64,000 nt of DNA, from positions 248,001 through 312,000 of the forward strand of contig NZ_QUHR01000003.1 in assembly GCF_003479605.1 (NCBI RefSeq). Direction: 5' to 3'. Made by a program: the position numbers and the translations under genes. The notes beneath the pieces were generated by a model. It searched no databases, was not told the DNA's origin, and saw only the letters and a list, made by a program, of their open reading frames with translations. This document shows positions 3,637-21,687 of this stretch, in pieces; the first letter of the stretch is position 1; each line of letters opens with the position of its first letter. This stretch comes from Roseburia sp. AF12-17LB (GTDB lineage Bacteria > Bacillota > Clostridia > Lachnospirales > Lachnospiraceae).

Positions 3637-6042
3637 TTATACACCATACAATTGATCTTTAACATTAAAAGATTGTCCAATTCTATTGTATTTAAAGAAC
3701 TTATACAAAATGTAATTTTCCTTATCTGTTTCATGAGTTGATAAGATAATCTGTCTATCCTTAAAATCATTACGAAGTACTTCTATCATTGACGAAATAT
3801 TAATATCATCCATTGTTTGAACCGGATCATCTATAAGAATAAATCCAAGATCATCTTCTGATTCTTTTACATATTGCTTATTCATAGAAAAAAGGAACGC
3901 CAAAACAAATCCCGATAATTGTCCCGAACTGAACGTATTAAGGATATCGTGCTTCACATCCCCATTTGTCACAAATCGCATCTCATCTTTACTGATAAAT
4001 ACGCCTAAACCATTCTGATAATCCTGCAAAATCTTTCCAGTATAGATTAATAATGGCACTCTCAGTCTCTTCAAAATCTGATTCTTATAAGATTCGATTG
4101 CATCAGAATATAACTTCTGTATATTCTTCAAATCTTCTCTTATCGCCTTTAAAGCTTTCCATCTTCTAATGTTTTTCTTAATGCGAGCTTTAATTTCATT
4201 GGCTTTTTCATTCTTCTTTGAATTTATTGCAGCTTTAATATAGCCTTTCTTGTTATCAACCATTTTTTCATCCTGCAATAGATTTTGCTCCGTCCACTCT
4301 ATATCAGGATATTCTTCTAATAAAGAATCATAGGCGTACAAAGAAAGATTATTTGTGAAATCTTCATTCGAGAAAACTCTCTTAGCTTCTATAAACATCC
4401 TTTGTAATTCATTTTTTTGTTCCTGTTTTCCCATGTCATCAAAAGCTTTATCCCCTCTGATCAATGGAATAAGCATTTCAACATTTTCTACCCTCTTCTT
4501 GTCAGAAACAAAGGAAGATAATCGCCTTACTTCATCTAAAATAACACTTACATCAGAATCATTAAGAGCCCCAATTTCTTTATTCAAAGCATTTTGGGAT
4601 TCCTTAACAGCTTCCTCCAACTGTTTTACCAGTTCATTATATTTCTTTAATTCCTCTCCATTTTCTTTTTCTAAAAGAGCATGAGCTGCTTCATATGCCT
4701 CCTTCAATTTTATTGATTCCCCATACTGCTGACCACAGTACGGACATTTGTCTGTATTTTCATCGAATTCCTCATTTGCTTCGTACAATGCAATTCTGGC
4801 ACTTTCCATCTTCTTTATTACTGCCTGTTTAGAAGAAAGAGTTTTACTCATTTCAATCAGATTTGTGCACATACTTTGTACATCTTCAATATCGAAGCGA
4901 ACGCTTTCTGGAAATAACTGCTTTAGTTTCCTCATTCCATCCGCACTATAATCACTTGGAACAATCTCTTTACTTCTTAAGAAAGCGCTATTATTAAAAA
5001 TCGTTATTACTCGATTCTTCGACTCTATAATATGCTTAATACCACCAATATCTATTTTTTTATCCTTCACATAATCACGGCTTAATAAACAATCTTCTAC
5101 CCCGTTAACCATTGCAGCTTCAAGCTTCTTGTTCCACAAATGATTCTTATAGTCTTCATAGTCTTTGACCAAATGTGAAATTCTATCAATGTCCCTTACT
5201 CCACGTTCAAGTTCTGATATATCGACCTCTTCAAGTTTTTCGGAATCCCAAAGTGGAGCACTATCCATATCTCCAAGATTTATAATGTTAAAAAATTCAA
5301 ATTCGCAACCAGATTCATCAATAGCACCAACCACCCTAAGCTGATCGATATCTTCATTTATCTTGACATCTAATGATTTAATTTCTTCATTTATTACAAC
5401 ATTAGAGGAAGATGCAGTTTTTCCAATTAATTTATCCTGAAGAAATTTTACCCAATTATCCACATCTCCCAGGTCAAGTAACGCATTCATTGCATCCTTT
5501 CGTTGAGTTATAGACTGCTTCAAAAAATGTACAGATTCAGCTTGAGATACATAATAATAAACAGCAAAATTCTCTTTAGAATACTTTAGTACATCAAACT
5601 CAGATATACTTTTTCTCCAATCTGAATATTCTCTAATACATACATCCAAATTTTCAGTGGAGATACTCTCATTTATCATTCCATACGTTATAGAATCCGA
5701 ATAATTGACCTTGTGCATTCCATGATCTATTCTTGCAATCAAAGACAAGCACTCACGTTTTTCATTTATTAAAGTGCAAACTATATAGCCATCAGAATCT
5801 GCTTCATTCAGTAACACATTTTTTTGCAGATCAGTATTTCCTTTTTCAATAGCCTCATTGAACCTAGTTATTTTATTAGAAAAGACCAATTCAATTGCGT
5901 CAAAAAATGTTGTTTTTCCAAATCCATTCGGACCTGTGAGAATAATAGGATTCTTTGTATCATCTAAAACAAATTCGTAATACTTTGAACCATCAAAGCA
6001 CTTAAAATTCTTAAGTCTGACAGACTTTACTTTATACTGCAT
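3637..6042 (-). CDS. SMC/Rad50-like ABC ATPase of an ABC-3C-type system
   Basis: 801 residues. Walker A GPNGFGKT (37-44) lies in an N-terminal half-domain opening VKSVRLKNFKCFDG, as in RecF/Rad50 proteins. A long coiled-coil section has CPYCG at 433-437, a Rad50-type zinc hook. The C-terminal half carries the signature region FSSGQLSGF, Walker B FILIDDP (about 733-739) and the switch His in LSTHETDKEN. The order ATPase, 263-residue middle protein and nuclease matches the three-component ABC (ABC-3C) conflict systems described by comparative genomics. Its start lies one base after the middle-component stop. Role inferred: sensor or power unit gating the nuclease subunit. Confidence 0.8.
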   Translation of the reverse strand: MQYKVKSVRLKNFKCFDGSKYYEFVLDDTKNPIILTGPNGFGKTTFFDAIELVFSNKITRFNEAIEKGNTDLQKNVLLNEADSDGYIVCTLINEKRECLSLIARIDHGMHKVNYSDSITYGMINESISTENLDVCIREYSDWRKSISEFDVLKYSKENFAVYYYVSQAESVHFLKQSITQRKDAMNALLDLGDVDNWVKFLQDKLIGKTASSSNVVINEEIKSLDVKINEDIDQLRVVGAIDESGCEFEFFNIINLGDMDSAPLWDSEKLEEVDISELERGVRDIDRISHLVKDYEDYKNHLWNKKLEAAMVNGVEDCLLSRDYVKDKKIDIGGIKHIIESKNRVITIFNNSAFLRSKEIVPSDYSADGMRKLKQLFPESVRFDIEDVQSMCTNLIEMSKTLSSKQAVIKKMESARIALYEANEEFDENTDKCPYCGQQYGESIKLKEAYEAAHALLEKENGEELKKYNELVKQLEEAVKESQNALNKEIGALNDSDVSVILDEVRRLSSFVSDKKRVENVEMLIPLIRGDKAFDDMGKQEQKNELQRMFIEAKRVFSNEDFTNNLSLYAYDSLLEEYPDIEWTEQNLLQDEKMVDNKKGYIKAAINSKKNEKANEIKARIKKNIRRWKALKAIREDLKNIQKLYSDAIESYKNQILKRLRVPLLIYTGKILQDYQNGLGVFISKDEMRFVTNGDVKHDILNTFSSGQLSGFVLAFLFSMNKQYVKESEDDLGFILIDDPVQTMDDINISSMIEVLRNDFKDRQIILSTHETDKENYILYKFFKYNRIGQSFNVKDQLYGV

Positions 6043-6043
6043 C

Positions 6044-6835
6044 TTATCCCCTCTTTTCCAGTCTCTTTTTCATCTCAGCCTCAATAGCAGCATCATCTTC
6101 AGGCAAGTTTAAAACTTTTATATATTCGTCTATATCCACACAGTTCTTGCTAATCAAAGTATGATATTTAAGAAATTCAGCGTCCATTTCTGACTCAATA
6201 CGCTTCTCAACTGCCATCGGCTTTTGCTGCGCGACAAAATTATATTGCAAAAAAGGTATTTTAGAAAATAATCTTATAACTAATTCGTAAGCATTATCCA
6301 AGTTCCGATGTCCTGCAAGTTCATAATACGCTTCTTCCTGATTAGCAATTTCACTCAATATATTCACTATGTTTTTCTCTGGATAGTCAGAAATAATTAT
6401 TTTTAGTTCGTCCACCTGCTTGTCAGTATAGGGTAAAACAAATCTTCTAAAATAGTGAGGTGACTCTTCAACCGAATATATTAGATTCCTATACTTATCC
6501 AAATTATTTAATGATTCCAATTTGATCGGATAAATTGCAGATGTGTTTTTGTCGATTTGTGCAGCTATACTTGCATTATCATTCACAAACAACTCCTGAA
6601 TTTTTCTTTTTACACCCTTTCCATTTGTATTCTCATCAATATAATCTTTTTCAAGCTGCTTTAACATTGTTAGCATTTCTACATCTGTTATGCCTTCGCC
6701 AGTTGCTTCGATATAATCAATCAGAAAAAAGCTTGTCTTATCTTCTGATTCAGCAGCATAAAATTCAATACTGTCATCTTGCCACTTTTCACCAAATCCA
6801 TATGCTTTAAAAATCTGTTGTATTAACTCTCTCAT
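6044..6835 (-). CDS. ABC-3C middle-component-like protein
   Basis: 263 residues with no catalytic motif that I recognise. Opening MRELIQQIFKAYGF and a helical, acidic composition fit the middle component of ABC-3C systems, normally about 200-280 residues and always between effector and ATPase genes. The start codon overlaps the effector stop by one base (TAATG) and its own stop is one base before the ATPase start, implying translational coupling and fixed stoichiometry. The assignment rests mainly on position and size. Confidence 0.6.
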   Translation of the reverse strand: MRELIQQIFKAYGFGEKWQDDSIEFYAAESEDKTSFFLIDYIEATGEGITDVEMLTMLKQLEKDYIDENTNGKGVKRKIQELFVNDNASIAAQIDKNTSAIYPIKLESLNNLDKYRNLIYSVEESPHYFRRFVLPYTDKQVDELKIIISDYPEKNIVNILSEIANQEEAYYELAGHRNLDNAYELVIRLFSKIPFLQYNFVAQQKPMAVEKRIESEMDAEFLKYHTLISKNCVDIDEYIKVLNLPEDDAAIEAEMKKRLEKRG

Positions 6836-8376
6836 TACAGTAATTCCTCTTTTGCCTGCTCAGCATCAACCAAGCGTATTATTTTAGGTTTATTACAATC
6901 AGCCTTTTCATCTTCTATATTGCTAGAAACAATATGCCTTATTTCTTCCAGCTGATTTCTTTCCAGTATATTCACATTGGAACCGTCTATCTTAAATGTC
7001 TCATCATTTAGACGACCAGTAATTAAAGTATCGCACTCATAAAGGAACGATTTATCTGGATTTTCTCTTATTCCTTTTTGTATTTTTTCTCTAAGTTTTT
7101 CTTTTTTACGACTATCATCAAGTGATAACCAATAAAACTCTTTATTCAATGAAGCCGTAATTATATTTTTCTCATTCAATGTTAAGACAGACAAATCCTT
7201 TAACAGTTCAACCAATTGTGTTTCGATTGTTTCATCACTTGGAAGATTATTAATACTCTCTGTTGGTTCTTGCAAAAGAAGATTAAAAACTAAGCTATGC
7301 TGTTCTTCAATCTCCCTATCTGACAATTCTGTAAGTTGTTTCAACAGATTACAGGTTTCTGCATTTGCACACTGTTCACAATTATTTTGATTACAATTAT
7401 TTTCTCTAAACTTTATAAATACCTCATCTATTTTGTTCAGCACTAGAAAATACTTAAACTCTTTGTTATCGTCATAATTGCTATAGTATTCTTTAACTAT
7501 TAATCCATAAAATTCACTAAATGAGATAATGCATCTATCATTCTTGTTCTTTTGAATAAAAAAATCTGTCACATACTGTTCTATAAGGCCTAACCCCTGT
7601 TCATACAAGAAACCACAATATTTATCATCCGCATATGTCCACTCGGGATGCACCATAGCAAGTATATCTTTAATTAGCTGAACACCTTGTTTTTTTACCT
7701 CTTTTATATCATCAAATTTTATTGGCCATTCTTCAACAAAACACCGGTCTTCAACACCATCCGGATTAGCGGATAAATAAATGTGTTTTCTATTTTCTAT
7801 CTCATTCACATGTTGCTGAAGCTCGTTCCGTATACTTTCAATAGCATTCTCAACAGAATTCCTATCTTTTTTTCCTCTTGTATTATATTTAATAATGCTA
7901 TATTTCGAAGCCTTCACAGTATTAGCTGTAACAGATTCCAATACAATATAATCATCAGGATTATCTGACGCATTTAAATCACCTTTTGAAACAACATCTT
8001 TTTGAAATTCAATATTCAAATTCGAAATAACCGAATACGCCTTTTCTAAAAAGTCACTTGGAATATGCTTATTTGAATTGACATGAAAATAACCCATTTC
8101 TGCGTCATTTTGAATAATTTCAGCGATAAAAGCAAATTTATCTTTATCATCAAGATTAACTGCCCCCAGCTTCACCTGATGCAAAGACTTGTATTGGCCA
8201 TTCTTCAGTAAAGCAAAATCTTCCTCTCCTTCAATTTGAACTTCATAGTCATCTAGTGTCTCTTGTTTTGACAAAATATCCTTTATATAAGAAAGTGTGA
8301 CATACAGCGCTATATTGCCCTGATATTTATAACCCTCCCATGAATATATTGCGCTAATCGGTGCTATCAAGCCCAT
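6835..8376 (-). CDS. ABC-3C effector with Cap4-like N-terminal nuclease
   Basis: 513 residues. The N-terminus has the WEGYKYQG start, the acidic EGEEDFAL (49-56) and HQVKLG (66-71), which together match the PD-(D/E)xK layout of Cap4/DUF4297-type DNA nucleases (E/D about 52-53, then Q-V-K). Residues 328-342 hold four cysteines (C328, C333, C336, C342) that could bind zinc. The C-terminal 150 residues would be the ABC-3C interaction domain. The gene abuts vsr with no gap. Inference: DNA-degrading effector controlled by the two downstream proteins. Confidence 0.7.
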   Translation of the reverse strand: MGLIAPISAIYSWEGYKYQGNIALYVTLSYIKDILSKQETLDDYEVQIEGEEDFALLKNGQYKSLHQVKLGAVNLDDKDKFAFIAEIIQNDAEMGYFHVNSNKHIPSDFLEKAYSVISNLNIEFQKDVVSKGDLNASDNPDDYIVLESVTANTVKASKYSIIKYNTRGKKDRNSVENAIESIRNELQQHVNEIENRKHIYLSANPDGVEDRCFVEEWPIKFDDIKEVKKQGVQLIKDILAMVHPEWTYADDKYCGFLYEQGLGLIEQYVTDFFIQKNKNDRCIISFSEFYGLIVKEYYSNYDDNKEFKYFLVLNKIDEVFIKFRENNCNQNNCEQCANAETCNLLKQLTELSDREIEEQHSLVFNLLLQEPTESINNLPSDETIETQLVELLKDLSVLTLNEKNIITASLNKEFYWLSLDDSRKKEKLREKIQKGIRENPDKSFLYECDTLITGRLNDETFKIDGSNVNILERNQLEEIRHIVSSNIEDEKADCNKPKIIRLVDAEQAKEELL

Positions 8377-8814
8377 CTATCTCAATCTCCCTTCAATATC
8401 ATGATATTCTATTTCTTGCTCCAACCATTCCATAGTCTTAATCAAATCCTTCTTTATCTCACACTCCCAGATAACAATTACCTTCCACCCAAGCTTCCTA
8501 AGCTTTTCCTGTTTTATCTGGTCGTTTTTGACATTTTTATCAAACTTCTCAAGCCAAAATTCCGTTCTCGTTTTTGGTGTTGTCGCATCTTTACATCCTT
8601 CATGCCGATGCCAAAAGCAGCCATGAACAAATATAGCCACATGATACTTTGGTAGGACAATATCCGGCTTACCAGGATATCTTTTATCATTCTTTCTGAA
8701 GCGATATCCTTTTGAAAACAGATATTTTCTGACTTCCACCTCAATTTTTGTATCCTTGCCCTTAATCCGGCTCATATTCCAGCTTCTTTTTTCCGGTGTA
8801 AGCTTATCGCTCAT
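8377..8814 (-). CDS. vsr: Very short patch repair endonuclease Vsr
   Basis: 145 residues, normal family length. Motifs: TPEKRSWNMSRIKGKDTK at the N-terminus, GKPDIVLPKYHVAIFVHGCF with the metal-binding Asp (about D51), then WHRHEGC and the C-terminal WKVIVIWECE. Vsr nicks 5' of T in T:G mismatches formed when 5-methylcytosine deaminates, so its place in an operon with a C5-cytosine methyltransferase is expected. It starts 16 bases after the DUF2357 gene and abuts the effector gene. Confidence 0.95.
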   Translation of the reverse strand: MSDKLTPEKRSWNMSRIKGKDTKIEVEVRKYLFSKGYRFRKNDKRYPGKPDIVLPKYHVAIFVHGCFWHRHEGCKDATTPKTRTEFWLEKFDKNVKNDQIKQEKLRKLGWKVIVIWECEIKKDLIKTMEWLEQEIEYHDIEGRLR

Positions 8815-8830
8815 ATTACTTCACCATCTT

Positions 8831-11281
8831 TCAAGATTTCACTAATAACCAATCTTCAGTTACAACCTTAGGTGAATGCGGACTGAATGTATCATTTCCA
8901 TTCACGCCATTCAAATCACTATTATTACAGCTAATCTTTGGCTCAGTGCAGCTTACTATCTCCACCTTAAGAACATAATAAAAATCTGCGGATCTTTCTT
9001 TACCATCGTTAGAACCACTCTCTGTCAGTAAATCATCAAGCTGCTTTTTTGAAACCAATTCTCTTGATTTTATGATTCCTTTAAGCGGCTCTATTTCATA
9101 TCTACCCGTAGCATTAATATCATTCTGATAAAAGCGAATATACTTTGCTTTTCCTATATCTTCATGATGTGAATACACTGATTCACCCTTAATAGCATAG
9201 TAATAAAAGACAAACGTCCTGCCTTCAGATAAAAGGTCTTCTCTGCTCAGTAACTCATAATAATCATGTCTCAAATAACCGATAACACACAAATCATTAT
9301 GGATATTCTTATTGTCCTTTTCCTTACCTGTAGTTCTTTTATCTAACGTACTAATCACAGGTTCACCAAGTACAAGGTTGCTATAAGACAACATACGGTT
9401 AAGTCTGCTGTATTTTCTGCTACGTGCTTCAATGATTTCATATATAAAATCCTTCAATACATTTTCACTGTCCGTCTGAATACTTGGTTTGATTGCAAAA
9501 GCACCTACTCCTGGAAGAACCTCCTCAAAGAGTCTGTAATTCTTTGTCTTTGAATCAAAATCTCCAGGATACAGGACGTAACTTCCTACAGTTCTTCTAA
9601 TTGCATCATTGTATGTATGCATTTTCAGAAGATCTCCTCGCTTGTATGTATTCGTTACGCTATCCTGTTTATCATTTTCAACTTCTTCCTTTATCTGCTC
9701 CTCAGTCATTTCATTTTCATCAGGTCCGATAAAAGATCTTAGATCCGTTATCCTGTACTTTGCATCAAAATGAATGTAGCTTACCGCACCTTCTCTGATG
9801 GCATCTTCAGGTTTAAGATAATCCGAAGGATACACTTCCAGCGTGTAATCCGGTCTAAATGGTCTTGAATATGATCCTGCATATTTTGTATTGGAAAACT
9901 CTTCCCTTGAAAAGGTCCTGTTATAATACAGATTCACTCTTGTACCCAAATCAGGGAGAAGAAATGCCTGACAAGAAGTCTGACCTTCGCTTAATGAAAT
10001 AGTTAGACCATTGTCAGTATTGATGAACGGCTTTTCAGAAGCCTGTATGCATTGGCAATTCTCGATTGAACTTATAATTTTTCTAAGCTCAAAAAACAGC
10101 CAATACTCATACAGCAATGCCGTATTTTTAGATTCGCCGCTATAAGCCACCTGCTCACCCTCCCAATTCAATTGAAGAGCAAGATCAACCATAGCTGCTG
10201 CATAGAAGATTTGTCTATATCCTTCTCTCTTTTCAAGTACCTGATTATTCTGTGGCATAATCGTAAGTTCTCTTACATCATCAAAGAAATGATCTCTCAA
10301 AATGTCATCAGTAATTCTTTGAATCTCTAAAGCCTCCCGATAGCACTCCGTATACATATTCTGTCCTGCATTTTTTCTTTTTGCGGCGTCAAGACTTGAA
10401 CAGAGTTCTCTACATATCAAGTTAAATTTTTTCAAAGCAAACTTCACAAAACGGTTTGCAACTGTATCAAGACTGTCATACTTTCTCGTCACAGCAACTT
10501 CCTGAGGCATAGGCTTTCCATTTACCATCTGCCAGCCTCTACTATGAGAAAAAGGGCTGGAATAAAAGCTTGCACTTGGAGAGCCCTGTCCAATTGGCTT
10601 AAGGACTTCATCCTTCATAAGCATTCTATCCGGATTACGCTTTATATGTCCGAAAAGAGCCTGTAAGTTATGTGAGTAACAGAATTTCCTCAAAAAAATA
10701 AACTGCTCCAAAAGTGTTTTGGCACTATTGGTATCAGATGTATCAAATCTGTTTGATGTAACACCTGAATACTCCAGTAAGATTTCTGCACACTCTTCGG
10801 CGATCTTTTTAGTCAACTCAATATAGTCCTCTTCATAATTCATCTTCTGAGGTACTATTTCAAAATCGACTACAGTTTCATCTAAAGAATTTTTTAAATG
10901 TGTTCTTCCCAGATAGTTAATAAATCTAAAGGATAATGCATCTCTATCTCTGGTTACTTTGAGAAATTTATTGTTATTCTCATTTGGGAAACTGAGATTC
11001 TTACAAATCTGTTCCGAACCAGCTTGAATATCACCCTTTAATCTACATGTATAAGTAGCTGTTTCACGTAGTCTTAATATTTTCTGTCCATCCACTGAAG
11101 TTGCAATATCAAGCTTTGAGAGCGCAGCTTTAGACGCAGCTTCTTTTTCTTCATAGGCAATCATATCTGTGCCTTCTTCTTCATTAGCTACGTTAAAATC
11201 AATAGTATCCCACTCGCCCTGCGGATAAATCACTATCTCTATTCCATTTTTATCTTTAAATGAAACTGCTGCTATGCCCAT
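8831..11281 (-). CDS. DUF2357 nuclease, McrC-like partner of the AAA+ protein
   Basis: 816 residues. The long N-terminal part matches the DUF2357-type proteins that accompany McrB-like ATPases. The PD-(D/E)xK nuclease core is visible as FRPDYTLEVYPSDY followed by SYIHFDAKYRI (about residues 460-505). Downstream the protein is rich in beta strands and ends without a membrane anchor. It starts 12 bases after the AAA+ gene, so the two subunits are co-translated. Inferred role: DNA-cleaving subunit of an McrBC/LlaJI-like restriction complex. Confidence 0.8.
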   Translation of the reverse strand: MGIAAVSFKDKNGIEIVIYPQGEWDTIDFNVANEEEGTDMIAYEEKEAASKAALSKLDIATSVDGQKILRLRETATYTCRLKGDIQAGSEQICKNLSFPNENNNKFLKVTRDRDALSFRFINYLGRTHLKNSLDETVVDFEIVPQKMNYEEDYIELTKKIAEECAEILLEYSGVTSNRFDTSDTNSAKTLLEQFIFLRKFCYSHNLQALFGHIKRNPDRMLMKDEVLKPIGQGSPSASFYSSPFSHSRGWQMVNGKPMPQEVAVTRKYDSLDTVANRFVKFALKKFNLICRELCSSLDAAKRKNAGQNMYTECYREALEIQRITDDILRDHFFDDVRELTIMPQNNQVLEKREGYRQIFYAAAMVDLALQLNWEGEQVAYSGESKNTALLYEYWLFFELRKIISSIENCQCIQASEKPFINTDNGLTISLSEGQTSCQAFLLPDLGTRVNLYYNRTFSREEFSNTKYAGSYSRPFRPDYTLEVYPSDYLKPEDAIREGAVSYIHFDAKYRITDLRSFIGPDENEMTEEQIKEEVENDKQDSVTNTYKRGDLLKMHTYNDAIRRTVGSYVLYPGDFDSKTKNYRLFEEVLPGVGAFAIKPSIQTDSENVLKDFIYEIIEARSRKYSRLNRMLSYSNLVLGEPVISTLDKRTTGKEKDNKNIHNDLCVIGYLRHDYYELLSREDLLSEGRTFVFYYYAIKGESVYSHHEDIGKAKYIRFYQNDINATGRYEIEPLKGIIKSRELVSKKQLDDLLTESGSNDGKERSADFYYVLKVEIVSCTEPKISCNNSDLNGVNGNDTFSPHSPKVVTEDWLLVKS

Positions 11282-11293
11282 TAAAACACCTTC

Positions 11294-13480
11294 TTACATA
11301 AAGCTTGCATACTGATATTTATCAAGTCTTTTCTTCATCTGCTCTATCTTCTTCAATGATAAAGTCATCTCTTCTGAAGACTCTCCAACTCCGTTTTTGC
11401 ATTTAGTTTCGAGAGTATTTAACAGCTCTCCTATCTGCTTTCTATCACCATAAATCTTTGGAAGAATCTTCTGAACTATCTGCTCATCCATAGTCCTTGT
11501 AAGACTAAACCCTTCCTTCTGCAACTCACATGCTGCTGCAAAATACTGACGGATTTCCTTGACAGTACGATAAGCAAATTCAAACCCGCTTTCCTGTAAC
11601 TCATCATAAATACCATCGAGGAATAATTTAATCTGATCAAGTACATCCGCATCAACATTGCAAACGCCATTTCTGATTTCCGATGCAAGAACCGCAAATC
11701 CTTCAGCCACTCCAAAATCAGCCGTTTCAACTTTGTTGACATCAGTGGCTCCTGTCATTAGCTTAAGAACATCATCCTTTTTCGGCTTAAATTCAACAAC
11801 ATTCGAACGATCCAACACTTTAGGACTAAACATATATGTTGTCTCATCTATATTCACTGTTCCTGTTACAAATAAGTTCTTAGGAAGACGAATCTTTTCA
11901 GGAATCACGTCTTTGGAATCTTCTGTATCCCCCTTTTGAACCGGCTTCTTATAAAGAGGTATTTCCTCATCTGATTCCATCGCACTTAAGAAATCCGAAA
12001 AATATCTTTCTACATGAGACAGATTCATTTCATCAAGAATTAAGAAATGTGGAATGCTCACATTCTCACTCGCCTGGAGTATAAAATCCAGTGTCGGTGT
12101 AGAAACATATCTCTCTTCCAATGGGTTATAGAAACCAAGCATTTTAGTATTATCCGTCCAATCCGCCCCAACTGGAACGATTAACCAATTTCTTTTTCCA
12201 TCAACATCTTTCTCAAGATACTGCGATATCTGCTTTGCAATTCTCGTTTTGCCAGTACCACTATTACCAGTAAGAATTACAAATGGTTTTGCAATTAATG
12301 AACTGATATAACGCTGTGCGAAATCACTATCAAAACAATTTGGTAATTCCTCTAGCTTAAATTCCCTCATGAGTATGTCTAAATACCACTTACCGTCTTC
12401 TTCATAAATCTTTATAACATCTGAGTAATTGGCATTAATAATACTAATTAAAGCTATAAGCGAAAGACCGCTTGATGTTGCTTCATTCAATTCCGTGCTA
12501 ACCCATTGATTAGATAATCTGCAGGTTTCTAAACTATCATCAACTGGTATCTCGTATTCTTTTTCCAAAAACACTCTAGACTCATCATTATATGAATCAG
12601 ATGAAGTTCTCGGGAAAATATATCTAAGGTAATTACCTCCCAAATCATCAGTGACTATCTTGATATTCTTATCGTTTATTTTCAAAAGCGATGATATCCT
12701 TTTAAACTTATCTATGCCATAGATACAATCAACTAACTGCTGTGCGCATTTTTTGCATTGCTTGAAAGGCAACTCAATTCTTGTGTCATAAACATTTTCC
12801 AGTTCCTCTCCATCCTTAACTAAAGGATCTTCTGGTTCATTATAAAACTTACAAAAGTTCTGATATGAAAATCTTTCAAAGAAGTCTCGTTCAGATTTTG
12901 TTTCACCTATCGGAAAGTTTGTTTTGATAAACGCCATTTCGCTCTCAACCGCAGTAACGTCCTCGTCAGAAACATACAAAATATCATCATTTCCAACTTT
13001 TTTATATTTAACTGGTGCAGCAAATGCCTTTATGACGTTAAGCAAAATATCATCACTTTTTCCACCGATATTCTTTTCAACAAATTTCTCAAAGCTTACG
13101 GAATGATTCTCTGACTGTAGAATATCCTCGCATAATCGGCAATATAAAAGAAACGCCTCATCATCTGATTTTACATAAGGGTTCGGTGCATAATACGTCT
13201 TAAACCAAAAAACAAGATATCGTGTCAGATTATTGTCATCAAAAGTATATAAATAATTATGTACCTTAAAGCTATTTGTTGATCTATCTTCTAAACCAAG
13301 TTGGCATGCTTGCTGATAAGCAGTTCTTTTATATCCTTTCAATCGCTCCTCAGCTAAGTCTTTAGCAAAATCCCATGAAATAGAGCCTGCCATATCAGGA
13401 TAAACTTCAAGTAATGATTTGAGATTAGCTAATGTAAAGTTTCTATATCTTGCAAATGGTGTAAATGACATATTATACAA
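11294..13480 (-). CDS. McrB-like AAA+ NTPase, restriction motor subunit
   Basis: 728 residues. The N-terminal 390 residues have no motif I recognise and probably read DNA. The AAA+ domain has Walker A GNSGTGKT (405-412), Walker B FLILDEMN (DE at 483-484) followed by LSHVERYFSDFLSAME as in McrB, and sensor-1 segment LFVTGTVNIDETT. The family hydrolyses GTP and translocates DNA for its nuclease partner, here the DUF2357 protein next door. The McrB-plus-nuclease pair after a C5-methyltransferase resembles LlaJI-type restriction-modification. Seventeen bases separate it from the methyltransferase gene. Confidence 0.85.
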   Translation of the reverse strand: MYNMSFTPFARYRNFTLANLKSLLEVYPDMAGSISWDFAKDLAEERLKGYKRTAYQQACQLGLEDRSTNSFKVHNYLYTFDDNNLTRYLVFWFKTYYAPNPYVKSDDEAFLLYCRLCEDILQSENHSVSFEKFVEKNIGGKSDDILLNVIKAFAAPVKYKKVGNDDILYVSDEDVTAVESEMAFIKTNFPIGETKSERDFFERFSYQNFCKFYNEPEDPLVKDGEELENVYDTRIELPFKQCKKCAQQLVDCIYGIDKFKRISSLLKINDKNIKIVTDDLGGNYLRYIFPRTSSDSYNDESRVFLEKEYEIPVDDSLETCRLSNQWVSTELNEATSSGLSLIALISIINANYSDVIKIYEEDGKWYLDILMREFKLEELPNCFDSDFAQRYISSLIAKPFVILTGNSGTGKTRIAKQISQYLEKDVDGKRNWLIVPVGADWTDNTKMLGFYNPLEERYVSTPTLDFILQASENVSIPHFLILDEMNLSHVERYFSDFLSAMESDEEIPLYKKPVQKGDTEDSKDVIPEKIRLPKNLFVTGTVNIDETTYMFSPKVLDRSNVVEFKPKKDDVLKLMTGATDVNKVETADFGVAEGFAVLASEIRNGVCNVDADVLDQIKLFLDGIYDELQESGFEFAYRTVKEIRQYFAAACELQKEGFSLTRTMDEQIVQKILPKIYGDRKQIGELLNTLETKCKNGVGESSEEMTLSLKKIEQMKKRLDKYQYASFM

Positions 13481-13497
13481 CCTCCCATTCCTTCTAT

Positions 13498-15237
13498 TTA
13501 ATCATTAAGCTTAGGATAGCTTAATAATATTTGCTCCATAATATGAATCAAGACATCAACAACAATACTGTTTCCTGCCTGTTGATACATTGAGGTATCT
13601 GAAACAACAATTTTAAAGCTGTCAGAAAATCCCATCAATCTTAGACATTCTCTTGGTGTAAGCTTTCTCAATCTGCCATCAGTCGTCACATAGTTGTCAA
13701 CTCCTGCTCTATGCATCTTATGCATAGTAGTTAGTAATGGTCGCGCAACCTCAAGATCTGTTTCCGGCTTGCTGTAAAAATTCTTTGTTCCAGTAGACAA
13801 TACATACTTTCTCACTTTTTCAGACAGATAGTACTTTTCTAAATCCGGAATATGATTCTTTTCTGCATCCTCTTCACTTTGGAATACAAAATCTCCATGC
13901 CAATTAAATTGCTGATTTTTCTTTTGACAAAGCTGAACCTCTCCATCTATCTGTGTAAATCTCTTTGAAAGATTTTTCTCACTGGTCACAAAGTCCACAC
14001 CCTTTTCTGGTAAGAAATAACCACCTGGTGCATTGTCCAACAAGAAATCTTGCATTTTCTTTTCAAGCTCAATTGCTTGTGGAAAGCTAAACTCAACATC
14101 AAGATCAAGATCATTTCTAAAACCTACAACAAATAATCTTTCTCTATTTTGAGGAACACCATAATCTCTAGCATTGAGAACCTTCCAACTAAAGCTATAA
14201 TCCAACTCACTAAAAACCTGCTGCATCTTCTTCCAAGTTTTTCCTCCATCATGAGAAGTAACAGCTCGCACATTTTCATATATGAAAACTTTTGGTCTTA
14301 TTTCATCAATCAAACGTGCATATTCATAAAACAATGTTCCACGAGTATCATCTAATCCTCTCTGTTTTCCAACAAAGCTAAATGACTGACATGGACTACC
14401 ACCAACAAATAGATCAACCTTTCCTGCGTATTGTTTTCCATCAAGGAATGCTATATTCCAATGGAAATCATCTTCTTTGATGTCGTAGTTAGCAGTGTAA
14501 CTTGCTTTAACTTTGTTTCTCTTTTCAAGGTCCTCGTACAATGAATCGACATACTTCTTGCGAGCCTTCCAATCTTCTCCAAGTGAATCTAATTTCCTTT
14601 GCACACGAAGATAATTAATTTTTTCGTGAAGCATACTGGTTCTTTGAGCCAGATCTATAACTCTTCGAATCAGTTTTCTTCCGTTATCATTTTCAAATCT
14701 TTCGAGCAACTCTGTAACACTCTGCGTAAGTCCTGCTTTTTCAAGTAAGTCATTGTTGTCTCTAAAATCATTTGAAAATGCTAATAAAAGCAGAAACTCT
14801 TCAAGTCTCTTATTTGCGAAAGATCCCTTTCCTAGTTCCGCAAGTCTCTTACTATATTCTTTCTTTCTGTTGGCCTTTAATACATTAGAATCTAATAATT
14901 CGGTTGTAGTATTTTTAAGCAATTCATTGTCTTTTTCTTCGACATTATTTAACTGTTCATCCACTTCATGAAATTCAGTCATTGATGCTCTAAGCATACC
15001 TTCCAACTGGTTTTTATAAAGATCTTCCACATTGTCATTAATGCTTATTTCCTCAATCAGTTCAGAAAGCGATTCTAATTCTGTTTCTATTTCATCAATA
15101 TCTGTATCAACATCCTTCGTAAGAATGTTTACATCACCATTGTCACATGCAAAAACAATTTCATTTTCGAGTCCCATTCGATTTAATGCATGCTCAATTG
15201 CTCCGATTCCACTAAATGCTGTTGCAAGTCTAATCAT
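13498..15237 (-). CDS. C5-cytosine DNA methyltransferase with helical insertion
   Basis: 579 residues, about 200 longer than a typical Dcm. Motif I is TAFSGIGAIEHALNRMG (7-22), followed by VFACDNGD (28-35). Motif IV is GGSPCQSFSFVGKQRG with catalytic Cys at 283; ENV, QNRERLFVVGFR and the C-terminal QAGNSIVV are present. Between motifs II and III, residues 36-245 form a highly charged helical or coiled-coil insertion absent from ordinary Dcm. It makes 5-methylcytosine; the recognition sequence cannot be read from the protein. Linked Vsr repairs its deamination products and the linked AAA+/nuclease pair is presumably the cognate restriction unit. Confidence 0.9.
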   Translation of the reverse strand: MIRLATAFSGIGAIEHALNRMGLENEIVFACDNGDVNILTKDVDTDIDEIETELESLSELIEEISINDNVEDLYKNQLEGMLRASMTEFHEVDEQLNNVEEKDNELLKNTTTELLDSNVLKANRKKEYSKRLAELGKGSFANKRLEEFLLLLAFSNDFRDNNDLLEKAGLTQSVTELLERFENDNGRKLIRRVIDLAQRTSMLHEKINYLRVQRKLDSLGEDWKARKKYVDSLYEDLEKRNKVKASYTANYDIKEDDFHWNIAFLDGKQYAGKVDLFVGGSPCQSFSFVGKQRGLDDTRGTLFYEYARLIDEIRPKVFIYENVRAVTSHDGGKTWKKMQQVFSELDYSFSWKVLNARDYGVPQNRERLFVVGFRNDLDLDVEFSFPQAIELEKKMQDFLLDNAPGGYFLPEKGVDFVTSEKNLSKRFTQIDGEVQLCQKKNQQFNWHGDFVFQSEEDAEKNHIPDLEKYYLSEKVRKYVLSTGTKNFYSKPETDLEVARPLLTTMHKMHRAGVDNYVTTDGRLRKLTPRECLRLMGFSDSFKIVVSDTSMYQQAGNSIVVDVLIHIMEQILLSYPKLND

Positions 15238-15244
15238 AATTACC

Positions 15245-15436
15245 TCACTCTATTATACTTTTTCCGCTCTTTACCCACTCGTCTAGTTCGGAGCATTTAA
15301 ATTTCCAAAGACGTCCTATCTTATGTGCTGGAACATCCTTGCCTTCTTTAATCCACTTTCGTAAAGTTACTGGCTTAATCCCCAAATACTCTGCGGCTTC
15401 ATCGAGCCCTATCCATTTATCCTGTAATTGATCCAT
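15245..15436 (-). CDS. Excisionase-type helix-turn-helix protein heading the operon
   Basis: 63 residues. It is a single winged HTH of the HTH_17/excisionase type: WIGLDEAAEYLGIKPVTL, then RKWIKEGKDVPAHKIGRLW and the closing FKCSELDEWVKSG. GGAGG lies seven bases before the ATG. Its stop is seven bases upstream of the methyltransferase start, so it heads the defence operon. In restriction-modification operons a small DNA-binding protein in this position often sets timing of methyltransferase versus nuclease expression. It could instead be a leftover Xis; the absence of an adjacent integrase argues against that. Confidence 0.8.
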   Translation of the reverse strand: MDQLQDKWIGLDEAAEYLGIKPVTLRKWIKEGKDVPAHKIGRLWKFKCSELDEWVKSGKSIIE

Positions 15437-15477
15437 ATGTTTCCTCCGGTTCCAGATTACATTGTATAGTTATCTTG

Positions 15478-15557
15478 AATATCACTTTAATGATATTTTA
15501 CTAGCTTTTTGCTACTAAATCAATGTATTATCTTATATTTATTGATATTTATTGATA
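15478..15557 (-). promoter_or_regulatory. Candidate operator region of the defence operon
   Basis: Within 120 bases upstream of the HTH gene are a perfect 7-bp inverted repeat (aatatca 15478-15484 / tgatatt 15491-15497) and two exact tandem copies of tttattgata (15538-15557). Further atcaat motifs continue to about 15580. The repeats share the TGATAT core, suggesting one DNA-binding protein, plausibly the HTH protein itself. Promoter elements are AT-rich but I cannot assign -35/-10 with confidence. Confidence 0.45.
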
Positions 15558-15851
15558 TTAACGAAACCAATCATCAATGAATCAATATATAAATCTTAAC
15601 AAAACTACTGTCCCATTACATGGACTCCCAAGTCATTTATTCGTGCTTTTTTAACTGATTCCACGCTTCGCGCGGCACCATCTTCGATGGTGTTAGGGCG
15701 CGTCTTCACAAAGTGGCGAGCAGTGCTTTTTTGTACAAAAAGCTACTATCCGCTCGTTGATGGCACATTCCCAATCCCCTTGAACAAGCTAATCGCTTGG
15801 CTACGCAATTCTTACGAATCGCTTTATTTTGCTGTTGGAATTTTCTTCAGA

Positions 15852-15905: not shown

Positions 15906-17346
15906 TTATCGAGTGATATTGTGTTTTCTGACACGTTCCTTCTTCTGCTCTTCATCGCTTTTAAGGAACTGATCGATATCGTATTTTGCTCTTTGAATCT
16001 CCTGCATATCTTTCTTAACCTGACGATATTCACCGTACAGCTTTTTCTTTTCTGCAAGGATCTAGGCATATTCGGCACTTAAGTCTTTTACCTTAGGAAG
16101 CTTCTTCAGATGAAGCTCATCAAAGGCATTCTTGGCAGCCTTATGAAGCAGTATTTCCTGTCTATGCTCTTCCAGGAATTTCTTGCTGTATTCGCATTTA
16201 CGATAATCCGCATATGCGTCTTTGGCCTTAAAGTAATCAAAGATATGTTTCTTAAGAACCTAAATCTCAGCAAGTCGCTTCTCATTATTCTTAATGGAAG
16301 CTGAAATTTACGTAAATCGCGTTATTGCTGTTTTCACATTTTTCTCCAGATCATTGTAGCTTCGAATGTCATGCTGCTTCAGATATAAAACTGCCTTGGC
16401 TACCAGCTTGGTATTAAAGTTCTTGGCAAAGCGGACATAATATTTTCCTTTGCCCTGAGCCAGCTTCTTTTGAATATCGATAAGAAGGTCAAACTCATGA
16501 TCTTCCTTTTTCCTCTGGTAAGCCTTAGGCTGCTTTTCAACTTTTTCATTATCGAAGAAAGCATGCTCCATCTCACCAGCAAGAATCTTCTTAAGATCAT
16601 CTTCTGAATAGCCATCACCCAGAGAACAAAGCCGGATGAAGCGTTTCTGATCTTTTCCCTTTAGAGAAATATGCTTTCCACGCTTAATCTCGTATCCGGC
16701 ATCTTCCAGTTTATAAAGCAGCTCATCAAAATCTTTTGCGCTACCTTCCTTAAGAACCTGATCAATCACATATCTAATATCATCACGGAAGGATTTCTTC
16801 TCAGGATAAGTTGTTCGTTTAACACGCTCACTTGGCTTCTTCTTTTCAATGACAGACAAGCCATGCTCCAGACAGATGATATCTGATAATCTCTGCAGAG
16901 CCAAACCTACAAAAAAAGAAATCTCTGAACTTACGGGTACAGTCAAGACTCGTAGAATTAAAAATAATGTGATTATGAATATGAGCCTTATCTGTACGTG
17001 TCGCTACGATAAAAGCATGATTCCCTTTGGTAAATCGCATGGCAGTTTCATAGCCTACCTGATTTGCTTCTTCCGGTGTAATCTCACCTGGTTTAAAGGA
17101 TTGCCTGATCTGATAAGCTATGATATTGCCATTAGGATGTCTTCCAGTAAGGCGCTCATATTCTCGTTTTGATAACATGAACTCTTCATCAACGCTCTCA
17201 GCCTGACAAGCGTAAGAACTAATGAATTGACCGTTTTCAGTCTTTTCACCATTCTTGACATAATCTGTTCTGTCACTAAGAGACTTCGCTACGCTTTTTC
17301 CTTTATTCTGATGCATCGTAATAAGTCTAGTAGCTGCCATGCGCAT
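15906..17346 (-). pseudogene. MobA/VirD2-type relaxase, frameshifted and with three in-frame stops
   Basis: The N-terminal part (166-codon frame from 17346) has the relaxase core: MRMAATRLITMHQNKGKSV and the metal-binding HIHNHIIFNST. At a run of seven T near 16930 the frame breaks. Removing one T continues smoothly into VGLALQRLSDIICLEHGLS and the frame at 16946-16308. That frame then reads on in register to 15906 through TAA (16308-16310), TAG (16260-16262) and TAG (16062-16064), with sensible relaxase tail sequence between (VLKKHIFDYFKAKDAY, KKFLEEHRQEILLHKAAK). Relaxases nick oriT and pilot DNA in conjugation. This copy cannot be functional as read; only the T7 break could be a sequencing artefact. 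Confidence 0.85.
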
Positions 17347-17357
17347 TCACCCCTTTC

Positions 17358-17711
17358 TCAAATCGTAGATAACCTTTGCAGAATACTTTTCATTACCTGC
17401 CACAATTCATCCTGGTGAGCCTTTATATCATCAATATCTTACTTGTAGATGCTTCCGGTTTCATTCGCCTTTTTCGTATACTGATTCATATTGGCAGAAG
17501 TGATGCCAAGAAGCCTTACAGCCTCTTTGACATCGCTCAAATCCATCTGTATGAGATAACCATCAATCGCCATTTTTCTAAGATATGCACTCTCATTCAG
17601 GATGCCGATTTCCTTTTCCCTGTCACGAATCAGCTTAGCTTCCCCCAGTGTAGCAAAGAAATGAAACTGCACCGTTCTGTTATCCATGGCTACATCTCCC
17701 TGCAAGGACAA
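17358..17711 (-). pseudogene. mobC: MobC relaxosome protein with nonsense codon
   Basis: The first 90 codons (start at 17687 or 17711) match MobC accessory proteins: RTVQFHFFATLGEAKLI, LRKMAIDGYLIQMD and NMNQYTKKANETGSIYK. A TAA at 17439-17441 ends the frame, yet the same frame continues with the normal MobC tail (DIDDIKAHQDELWQVMKSIL) to a TGA at 17358. It precedes the broken relaxase gene in the usual mobC-mobA order. The truncated product may lack the tail helix needed to hold the relaxosome together. Confidence 0.8.
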
Positions 17712-18229
17712 ATCTCAGGAGCCTTTCTCTCTGGAACATGAACCGGAGCTGTTTTTACCTTCTCCTGCTGTTCTTTTATCTTTTCCATCACAGAAGCTTT
17801 CGTATCAGCTGCAATATCTTCCTGATCTGCCTTCTCATTGATTTCAGCAAAATCCGGTACAGGAGCTGCAGGCACATTATTGATAATCCCATCAAAGGAG
17901 TTATCATTCTGCTCTACCATGTCCTCGATACCGCGCATATGATTTCTGCTAATAGATGGGCCAGCTCCCACATCTTCGATTGGATCAATAGACTTCGGAA
18001 TCTGTTTCTCCACTTCCAAAAGCTTCTGCTCCCACTCAGCTGTCATAGATGCTGACTGAATCTGTTCCGGCATAACGGTAATAAGAGAAGTTACCTTATC
18101 GGTAGGAACCAAATATTTGGTCTTCTTATTACCCTGTCGTTCTACAAAGCCAATACGAACCAGCTTTTCAATTACGCCAGCTCTTGTTGCAGGAGTACCA
18201 AGTCCTTTACGCTCTACTTCGTCCGGCAT
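17690..18229 (-). pseudogene. Chimeric remnant: TopB C-terminal segment joined to DUF4316-like tail
   Basis: 179 codons. Residues 1-75 match a C-terminal part of element-encoded DNA topoisomerase III (ERKGLGTPATRAGVIEKL, LITVMPEQIQSASMTAEW). From about residue 80 the sequence changes to the tail of a YodL/DUF4316-type conjugative-element protein (GIINNVPAAPVPDF, VMEKIKEQQEKV). The catalytic Tyr domain of the topoisomerase is absent. Two element genes were therefore fused by deletion. The left end overlaps mobC and the right end overlaps the truncated resolvase. Confidence 0.7.
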
Positions 18230-19974: not shown

Positions 19975-21687
19975 CTAAAAAAATGCATCATTAAAAAGTT
20001 TATATATATTAGCTCCAAATGTTTCTTCGTGATTATCTTCATTATCAATATGACACTTATCCTTTTCTCTCTTCAAAAATATAACATTACTTCGAGGCAT
20101 ATCTGACAAAACAATTGGACTATGTGTTGTAAAAATTATTTGCACCTTCTTATCTGAGTATTCTGCCTTTATTTCCTCAATTAGATAATTTAATAATTTT
20201 TGCTGCCACAGCGGATGACAATATAGATCTATTTCATCTATAAGCAATAGTACATTTTCACGCAAACTTTCCACAACATCATTACTTATGTAATTAAAGT
20301 ATGGAACCATGTGTATCCAAGAAAAAAAATTCAACAACGCCCTCTCTCCTGATGCAAGCCGCAACCCACCTATGTCAATATACTTAAGTACATATGAATA
20401 TTTCCTCTCATATACAGATTTCTTTATCAATTCAAGGAATTGATTATACGCTTCACTTCCATGCTCAACCTCCTTATATGATACATATGCCAAATCCGAT
20501 AACGGAAGCGAACAATGATACATTCTACAATTTGCTATCACTCTTTCATATTCTTGAATTTCTTGTAAATTCTCCTGAAAAATACCAGCATATCTATCAT
20601 TTTGCCTTAATAGCTCATTTATTGCATTTGTTATATACTTTACAAGTTCTTCTTTGTTGTTAATTGATTGCTCGCCATCACATTCTGTTATTCTGCGATA
20701 TACTAACAATTCATATAGCAGATTAATATAAATAACAACAAATATATCTGTTTTCATCAGCTCAAAATCAAACCCTGCTAATCTTTTATTAACCATTTCA
20801 TTAAAATATTTTATAAGTGGTAGATCATTTCTTTTTTCCTCTGTAAAACCTTTATACCTGTCTTCTAATAATTTTATAACCGTCTGAAATTTAATTTCCA
20901 ATGTTCCAACAATATTTTTCGCAAACATACTTTCGATATTGTTTTCATTAACATACTGAAGATACAACATATCCAAGATTTGCTGAAACTCATTTGCTTT
21001 TTTCACATAGCATACAATATCCTGTATTTCATAATATCCGCCTACGCAAAAGGTCTCTTTTCTACATTTCTTCTTGTAAAAAATACTTTTTAACGTTTTC
21101 AAAGAATTAACATTAAGCGAAATTTTACTAATACTTTCGTGTGTAGAAACCCCATCTTCCAACGAATACATACTATTTGAAATACATATCTTGCTTATAT
21201 TTTCGAATGCCTTATTATCTCTAATAATTTCTGCTAACTCTGGAGAACCTTGCTGTAAACAAACTTCTTTTACTTCTGTTTCATTTACAAAATTATCTAA
21301 GTTATGATAGCATACCAATTCTGCATCCTCTCTATATATAGCAAGTTTCTTATCTTTCTCATATTTCTCCATGAAATAATTATCATAAACGGAATCATGT
21401 TCTTTATCCTTTACACTCCCATAATAGTCCGACAGCATATTTAATAATGTAGTTTTTCCTGCGCCATTTTCTCCAACTATAGCCGTAATATTTGTAACAC
21501 ATTTTTGTCTATCAAAAAAATCTGTTGGTAACAAATTCTTACATACATTCTGCTTTAATACATATTTTCCATCAATATATTCTACATAAAAATTATAATT
21601 TGCAGAAAAATTAAACCCCGTCTTCTCAATAAATTTTGAAGATGCTTGATTTATATAAAAGAATACTAATTCCAAACTATTCAACAC
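19975..21687 (-). CDS. ptuA: PtuA-like AAA ATPase (Septu-type defence), frameshifted near its end
   Basis: 570 residues as read, about 670 if the downstream frame is joined. Walker A is GENGAGKT, preceded by VTNITAIV. The C-terminal half has the signature LRLASGERALLNFFSWIH, Walker B VLLLIDEIDLYCHPLWQQ and switch TTHSPIVLSDMP followed by ETFGANIYKLF. This is the AAA_21/OLD-like ATPase architecture found with HNH partners in Septu and some retron systems. A GTG start follows GAAAG. The premature stop lies inside a T7 tract. The downstream HNH gene supports the Septu assignment; no reverse transcriptase is present, so this is not a retron. Confidence 0.75.
   Translation of the reverse strand: MLNSLELVFFYINQASSKFIEKTGFNFSANYNFYVEYIDGKYVLKQNVCKNLLPTDFFDRQKCVTNITAIVGENGAGKTTLLNMLSDYYGSVKDKEHDSVYDNYFMEKYEKDKKLAIYREDAELVCYHNLDNFVNETEVKEVCLQQGSPELAEIIRDNKAFENISKICISNSMYSLEDGVSTHESISKISLNVNSLKTLKSIFYKKKCRKETFCVGGYYEIQDIVCYVKKANEFQQILDMLYLQYVNENNIESMFAKNIVGTLEIKFQTVIKLLEDRYKGFTEEKRNDLPLIKYFNEMVNKRLAGFDFELMKTDIFVVIYINLLYELLVYRRITECDGEQSINNKEELVKYITNAINELLRQNDRYAGIFQENLQEIQEYERVIANCRMYHCSLPLSDLAYVSYKEVEHGSEAYNQFLELIKKSVYERKYSYVLKYIDIGGLRLASGERALLNFFSWIHMVPYFNYISNDVVESLRENVLLLIDEIDLYCHPLWQQKLLNYLIEEIKAEYSDKKVQIIFTTHSPIVLSDMPRSNVIFLKREKDKCHIDNEDNHEETFGANIYKLFNDAFF

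Follow-up and report, generated by a model that had tools for sequence, protein, structure and literature searches.

The operon described here lies in a window of 64,000 nucleotides from Roseburia sp. AF12-17LB (Lachnospiraceae; contig NZ_QUHR01000003.1 of assembly GCF_003479605.1, positions 248,001 to 312,000); all coordinates without a locus prefix are those of the window. Eight genes follow each other on the minus strand (15436–3637), encoding a helix-turn-helix (HTH) protein, a C5-methyltransferase, the restriction subunits R1 and R2, the endonuclease Vsr, and LmuA, LmuC and LmuB (Table 1). The first half of the operon is a LlaJI-type restriction-modification (R-M) system and the second half a type II Lamassu (ABC-3C) system. 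The lmuA gene begins directly after vsr, with zero gap, and lmuA and lmuC overlap by 1 base. A preliminary description of the locus had recognised an eight-gene operon joining R-M to ABC-3C genes, with a 1-base overlap between effector and middle component; gene content and gap-free order are confirmed, and the overlap is that seen at lmuA/lmuC. The promoter-like site before the HTH gene (15523–15495) matches at 9 of 12 positions, which is the chance level.

Table 1. Features of the R-M–Lamassu operon and of the adjoining sequence, with the evidence for each assignment (aa, amino acids; ORF, open reading frame).
Feature	Coordinates	Strand	Evidence and remarks
Inverted repeat, 7-base arms and 6-base spacer	15478..15497	(-)	Overlaps promoter-like -10 5' of HTH gene; possible operator; read by eye
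HTH_17/excisionase-like DNA-binding protein, 63 aa, likely regulator	15245..15436	(-)	Pfam HTH_17 1.3e-15
C5-cytosine DNA methyltransferase of 579 aa; motifs I and IV separated by a long insert	13498..15237	(-)	DNA_methylase 4e-71; FSGIG, SPCQS, ENV and QAGNS motifs
R1, McrB-like AAA+ motor carrying a predicted specificity domain at its N-terminus, 725 aa counted from ATG 13471 (listed ORF: TTG 13480)	11294..13471	(-)	
R2, DUF2357 and PD-(D/E)XK nuclease (McrC/LlaJI.R2-like), 816 aa	8831..11281	(-)	DUF2357 2.6e-37; PDDEXK_7 1.4e-27
Vsr mismatch endonuclease, 145 aa	8377..8814	(-)	Vsr 2e-34; TIGR00632 148.5 bits (cut-off 97.85); PDI and HGCFWH motifs
LmuA effector, Cap4-type nuclease domain and ABC-3C CTD1, 513 aa	6835..8376	(-)	CTD1 4e-13; LmuA 8e-21; structure match to Cap4/LmuA
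LmuC middle component (MComp1), 263 aa	6044..6835	(-)	MComp1 3.8e-9
LmuB, Rad50/SMC-like ATPase, 801 aa	3637..6042	(-)	LmuB 3e-69; AAA_23 4e-14; motifs
Specificity package exchanged relative to L008 (HTH, methyltransferase, R1 N-terminal part)	12334..15596	(-)	blastn; homologous sequence on both flanks
Constant block (R1 motor, R2, Vsr, LmuA, LmuC, LmuB)	3637..12334	(-)	Homology stops ≤8 bases from lmuB stop codon
Remnant of integrative/conjugative-type element: relaxase in two frames and topoisomerase fragment, broken	15909..18229	(-)	93–97% identical to L008 relaxase and topoisomerase

The genes for a methyltransferase making 5-methylcytosine (5mC), a McrB-like R1 and a PD-(D/E)XK nuclease R2 are adjacent and co-directional, as in LlaJI-type systems. 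The R2 residues P477-D478 and D506-A-K508 are invariant in 18 sequences. An AlphaFold model of R1 shows the AAA+ motor, with McrB among the top structure matches, while the N-terminal reader was barely probed by the comparison. For LlaJI of Lactococcus lactis, a relative of BsuMI and LlaI, R1 alone is reported to set the specificity, and the N-terminal half of R1 is described as largely unique (PMC1459862). The two systems share the 5mC methyltransferase, the McrB-like R1 with its variable N-terminal half and the McrC-related PD-(D/E)XK R2 (PMC1459862). The system in the window differs in having one methyltransferase where LlaJI has two, in its vsr gene, in the NxD motif of R1, in the attached Lamassu and in the long stretches of R2 before and after both Pfam domains.

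R1 carries an NxD motif followed by a glutamate (NID-E) and, by motif only, would belong to the NxD branch of McrB GTPases. Many members of this branch are described as linked to methyltransferases, none being characterised at the time of the census (PMC11090510), and the likeness includes the McrB-like AAA+ motor, the DUF2357-PD-(D/E)XK partner and the NxD and E residues. Lamassu, ABC-3C and LlaJI are absent from the main text of that census. A type IV McrBC system was rejected on gene content, as the operon includes a C5-methyltransferase that moves with R1. A CoCoNuT was considered on account of NID-E, but the McrC catalytic residues are intact, and the assignment was dropped because no Pfam match to HEPN, Hsp70 or cold-shock domains was found among the eight proteins of the operon.

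The lmuA-lmuC-lmuB trio, with a Rad50-like LmuB, has the layout of type II Lamassu systems, also treated as DdmABC or ABC-3C, with which it shares the gene order, the Cap4-type LmuA and the zinc-hook motif of LmuB. The structure model of LmuA matches Cap4 and LmuA structures and has the Cap4 fold with its catalytic residues; E49, D53 and HQVK (66–69) are invariant in 32 sequences. In LmuB, Walker A (37), a zinc-hook-like CPYC (433), SSGQ (705) and the Walker B motif FILIDDP (734) were recognised. The trio is an ordinary type II Lamassu of the CTD1/MComp1 type. LmuA, LmuC and LmuB (513, 263 and 801 aa) have nearly the lengths found in six stand-alone systems (510–541, 261–270 and 802–806 aa; L010, L011, L013, L015, L018 and L097), and R2 and Vsr (816 and 145 aa) nearly those found in L024 (809 and 149 aa), where no Lamassu was detected. 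By subunit length and Pfam, no added domain for cross-talk was found in either block. The stand-alone systems differ in their surroundings: the six named above start 84–695 bases past the preceding gene, and L014 starts 51 bases past it; in none of the seven were the R-M gene kinds that were tested for found directly upstream.

Patterns from the LmuA alignment, scanned over 84,980 genomes, gave 12 loci. The three closest (LmuA 77–91% identical) come from a Bacillales metagenome-assembled genome (MAG; L007), from Ca. Galacturonibacter soehngenii (L008) and from Lachnospiraceae bacterium 3-2 (L009). The order methyltransferase-R1-R2-Vsr-LmuA-LmuC-LmuB is identical in L007 and L008, and L009 has a Vsr fragment followed by a decayed Lamassu. 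The synonymous divergence (dS) between the window and L007 is uniform across the border of the two halves (R2 0.692, Vsr 0.697, LmuA 0.701, LmuC 0.666, LmuB 0.671; non-synonymous to synonymous ratio dN/dS 0.05–0.16), which shows that the blocks have a common history; for the methyltransferase (dS 1.85) and R1 (dS 1.84) the divergence approaches saturation. L007 and L008 are similar over all seven genes (dS 0.50–0.82). In 5 of 5 pairs of Lamassu-bearing loci (window, L007, L008, L009) homology breaks off no more than 8 bases from the lmuB stop codon, and past this point the loci have different sequences. Together, these comparisons support the view that the two blocks are one inherited unit; for this clade, chance juxtaposition is ruled out by the uniform dS, the common end at lmuB and the recurrence in L007 and L008.

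Window and L008 align over 8698 bases at 91.5% identity, from inside R1 to lmuB, and over 2417 bases at 88.6% in the upstream flank, which holds the relaxase and topoisomerase of an integrative/conjugative-type element; between these homologous flanks only a 70-base match was found. At the protein level R2 (97%), Vsr (92%) and the Lamassu subunits (91–93%) are conserved, whereas the methyltransferases are just 29% identical and the R1 N-termini are without BLAST similarity. The package of L008 resembles that of L024 (methyltransferase 79%, R1 59% over its full length), a locus with an R2 of just 50% identity; the 19.5 kb of L024 that were examined revealed no Lamassu gene. The regulators, read from the frames, differ as well: HTH_17 in the window and an XRE-like HTH in L008 and L024. 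The reader of the window R1 (residues 1–215) recurs at 72–84% on motors that are just 49–55% identical, and at 52–59% also on motors whose similarity is slight or absent; L007 and L008 have a motor that is 81–82% identical to that of the window R1 and an unrelated reader. The R1 N-terminus and the methyltransferase are swapped together between loci. The alignments indicate that the methyltransferase and the putative specificity half of R1 were exchanged as a package, the remainder of the cassette having stayed. Since reader and methyltransferase are replaceable, any coupling between restriction and Lamassu would have to run through the constant part or through DNA, and not through these two components.

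The tandem is rare but occurs with three R-M types. Among 398 genomes of the phylum of L008, DUF2357 was found in 54 and the LmuB model in at least 45 (a lower bound, as three candidates per genome were scored), and 11 had both, against 6.1 expected; among 14 control genomes, 0 had a DUF2357 match and 3 an LmuB match. In the phylum sample, a distance of at most 15 kb between the two was seen only in the genome of L008 itself (G448, on which the sample was centred) and in G1139. The latter was rejected as a second co-occurrence: its ATPase is PbeC, in a Pbe/Dnd-type locus beside a McrBC-like pair, and not a Lamassu. As the LmuB model at 1e-20 also catches such PbeC-like proteins, genuine Lamassu was called by the LmuA-LmuC-LmuB layout. 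The layout was present in 20 of the 30 loci examined among the 46 listed places (G448 and G1139 were viewed separately), and 19 of the 20 were assessable upstream, L105 starting 166 bases before lmuA.

Of the 12 CTD1-type loci of the genome-wide scan, three (L007, L008, L016) have an R-M gene directly upstream, and L009 has a Vsr remnant there; in seven (L010, L011, L012, L013, L014, L015, L018) no such gene was detected, and L017, a fragment, was left unjudged. A neighbourhood search had been suggested in the preliminary description to see whether the two blocks recur together; the cassette does recur, in L007, in L008 and as a remnant in L009, but wide recurrence was not found, with only the known genome among the 398. 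The clade had no representative among viral contigs, among phages and plasmids (protein) or among plasmids (DNA), where all matches were distant. Across 391 genomes from the class to which the nearest available genome belongs, R2 and LmuA had one distant match each; in 61 relatives LmuB had six matches, none of the clade; and in 299 genomes of the family of L008, R2 matched twice, in the genome of L008 and in G633 (L024). No description of an R-M system fused to Lamassu was found in the open-licence literature searched.

Two further tandems have other R-M systems. L016 (6842–10491; Lachnospiraceae MAG, LmuA 47% identical) has two methyltransferase genes, one for a D12-class adenine enzyme and, after a 205-aa ORF, one for an enzyme of the N6/N4 type; they are followed by the gene for a DpnII-family endonuclease (PF04556 3e-112), which ends 14–17 bases before lmuA. 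L092 (7158–13214; genome G935) has a C5-methyltransferase, an Eco29kI-family endonuclease (PF09517 5e-67) and Vsr, then 58 bases, followed by LmuA (CTD7), LmuC and LmuB. By Pfam, the LlaJI-, DpnII- and Eco29kI-type nucleases are of three separate families; a PD-(D/E)XK fold may be common to R2 and DpnII, and Eco29kI does not have it. The placement of R-M types other than LlaJI directly before Lamassu-type genes suggests a cooperation of the two defences.

Lamassu is reported to respond to hairpins, aberrant structures or DNA ends, its effector attacking host and invader DNA alike; in V. cholerae, at native expression, it is described as needing or synergising with the DNA-degrading DdmDE (PMC10586767, PMC12904381, PMC12409362). 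Our favoured reading, to which we give an even chance, is that of a mobile two-layer defence cassette whose layers are most likely coupled through DNA. The methyltransferase would mark self DNA; R1, with its N-terminal DNA reader and its motor driven by nucleoside triphosphates, would find unmethylated sites, where R2 would cut; and Vsr would repair the T:G mismatches left by deamination of 5mC. LmuB, Rad50-like and with its zinc-hook motif, would together with LmuC keep LmuA, the Cap4-type nuclease, in check until ends of foreign DNA or unusual DNA structures are detected, and LmuA, once released, would degrade DNA and abort the infection. Both layers would be made together from the single operon. 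The breaks made by R2, and the repair or replication structures that arise, would add to the input of LmuB, so that sequence-specific restriction might act as a front end for Lamassu. The sequences themselves show the anatomy, the intact motifs, the joint inheritance, the exchanged specificity and the recurrence with further R-M types; co-transcription, the activity of LmuA and the coupling through DNA are what we infer here. We rank coupling through DNA above contact-based silencing because the three nucleases share little but a cut in unmodified DNA and because the blocks have no added domain.

A stronger version, which we put forward only tentatively and hold to be rather unlikely, is that R-M was joined at least three times (LlaJI-, DpnII- and Eco29kI-type nucleases) to Lamassu/ABC-3C as a restriction-fed suicide system, breaks on foreign DNA being the licensing signal for the Rad50-like sensor. 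If true, Lamassu would gain a programmable, exchangeable target specificity and R-M a fail-deadly second stage. RloC and PrrC offer partial parallels: in the former, a Rad50-like sensor of double-strand breaks is reported to drive a suicide effector, and the latter is described as kept silent by the type I R-M enzyme to which it is linked and as switched on by an anti-restriction factor of a phage (PMC3874168, PMC2610378). The operon resembles PrrC-EcoprrI in linking a predicted suicide effector to R-M, and RloC in combining such an effector with a Rad50-like sensor. It differs from both in its effector, which is predicted to be a DNase and not an anticodon nuclease and which has its sensors in subunits of their own, and from PrrC-EcoprrI in that its R-M system is LlaJI-type and not type I.

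Several observations weigh against coupling through DNA and against a strict union of the two halves. Tandem placement can also be explained by the convenience of co-expression, and a DNA end made by restriction would likewise be accessible to RecBCD/AddAB. Between the window and L008, dS is 0.12 for R2 and Vsr against 0.33–0.45 for LmuA, LmuC and LmuB; this difference points to recent recombination near vsr/lmuA, and the halves can therefore differ in history. At 90% clustering, the R2 clade (P0058–P0120, at least 65% identical) has 63 clusters and the LmuA clade (P0001–P0039) has 39, or 55 and 32 when counted at full length, with only about 8,000 candidates scored in each. Since LmuA evolves faster, strict linkage predicts more LmuA clusters, and some R2 relatives probably lack this LmuA. 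On the other side, the LmuA and R2 clusters show four exact coincidences of contig size (13198, 13331, 10392 and 13046) and one near-miss within 10 bases, which fit linkage; 13198 is L007, the sole one that was read. Stand-alone Lamassu is, moreover, the rule in the phylum sample: an R-M gene lies directly upstream in 1 of the 19 assessable trios (L092). Pfam served to identify the upstream neighbours of L091, L092, L098 and L107; at the other loci, BLAST was used to look for Vsr, McrC and methyltransferases of the C5 and Dpn kinds, a search that more distant type I or III R-M genes would escape. Same-strand genes within 60 bases upstream of lmuA (ORFs of at least 80 aa) were Vsr in L092, an 80-aa ORF in L091 and a metallo-beta-lactamase-fold protein in L098. 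Finally, the contig of L016 stops inside lmuA and shows the first part of that gene only, and LmuB was not found in the genome of L016 by a search that had no positive control.

Plain stacking is the strongest rival: a common promoter and a mobile element would provide for joint expression and transfer, the halves would not influence each other, restriction would deal with unmodified DNA, and Lamassu would independently handle escapees from restriction. We consider it less probable than coupling, though a serious possibility. Defence genes are known to cluster on mobile elements, and the operon adjoins a relaxase/topoisomerase remnant; no subunit has an added domain, most Lamassu loci seen are stand-alone, and the R-M block is present in L024, where Lamassu is undetected. 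Against stacking stand the three R-M types, of different families, in one and the same order, with R-M followed directly by lmuA, and the uniform dS together with an exchange of specificity that left Lamassu attached; these observations are suggestive and not proof.

The preliminary description had offered another explanation, that failed or inhibited restriction could trigger the effector. Here, the R-M proteins would silence the Lamassu effector, which would be freed when restriction fails or when a phage brings an anti-restriction protein. The close packing of the operon, in which stop and start codons abut or overlap at vsr/lmuA and lmuA/lmuC, is in keeping with such an arrangement, and PrrC provides a precedent (PMC3874168, PMC2610378). 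This trigger is possible but improbable. No extra domain that might make a silencing contact of the PrrC kind was seen: the lengths of LmuA, LmuC, LmuB, R2 and Vsr show no docking addition relative to the stand-alone systems and L024. The R1 reader and the methyltransferase can be replaced wholesale, three different R-M systems would each need their own silencing contact, and Lamassu already has regulators of its own in LmuB and LmuC. The DNA ends and hairpins described as Lamassu triggers agree as well or better with a Lamassu fed by restriction. The cassette might also guard against its own loss: if the operon were lost, methylation would decay before R2, R2 would cut the chromosome, and residual Lamassu would amplify the breaks to death, so that the element is stabilised. 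R-M systems are known for post-segregational killing, and the cassette adjoins a mobile-element remnant, but the decayed copy in L009 shows that it can decay in a living lineage, and we regard this possibility as very remote.

The novelty of the operon lies in the joining of known modules in a conserved, specificity-exchanging composite and in a testable link between restriction and Lamassu. The trigger of Lamassu and the means by which it spares the host chromosome are described as open questions (PMC10586767, PMC12904381, PMC12409362). With the R-M specificity exchanged under an attached Lamassu, it can be tested directly whether restriction cuts alter Lamassu activation. Should Lamassu be fed by restriction, then R-M and abortive infection would be stages of one pathway and not independent layers, which would bear on phage escape via DNA modification or anti-restriction. 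Otherwise, the cassette remains a clear example of two defence types jointly inherited by one mobile unit.

Some members of the clade have features of their own. P0052 and P0120 are single-member chimeras, of the R1 N-terminus with the LmuA C-terminus and of the R1 N-terminus with R2, and could be natural internal deletions or assembly errors. P0010 is a clade LmuA (84%) annotated in Enterococcus cecorum, with a longest contig of 2.48 Mb. In L008, two ORFs of 278 and 365 aa without Pfam match directly follow lmuB (L008:14762–16692); blastn gave no match to them in the first 20 kb of the window or in L007.

Other Lamassu loci have neighbours of different kinds. In L109 (1627–9886), LmuB (PADLOC 3e-224) is followed after 367 bases by same-strand genes for a C5-methyltransferase, a HATPase (MutL-like by reading), an Mrr-helicase fusion, a 193-aa ORF and Vsr; the locus was not counted as a tandem. 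Also uncounted is L018 (5071–14820), where a co-directional ResIII/PLD-helicase and an AAA_23 ATPase (Pbe-like by reading) lie upstream of a CTD1 Lamassu, the last of these genes stopping 251 bases before lmuA. The LmuA of L098 (8274–12995) has a trypsin domain, and the metallo-beta-lactamase-fold gene upstream overlaps it by 11 bases, an arrangement that resembles nuclease-protease pairs described in PMC12799240. A reverse transcriptase (RVT_1) gene lies 451 bases upstream of the stand-alone CTD1 Lamassu of L010 (7927–11554). L088 (491–18248) is a Pbe-type locus with a sigma70 region 4 protein, beside a McrBC-like pair (PDC-M26A AAA and DUF2357 nuclease) and a PDC-S26 protein. In the window itself, a 570-aa AAA_21/AAA_15 ATPase (19975–21687), possibly another defence gene, lies in a low-GC stretch beside the operon.

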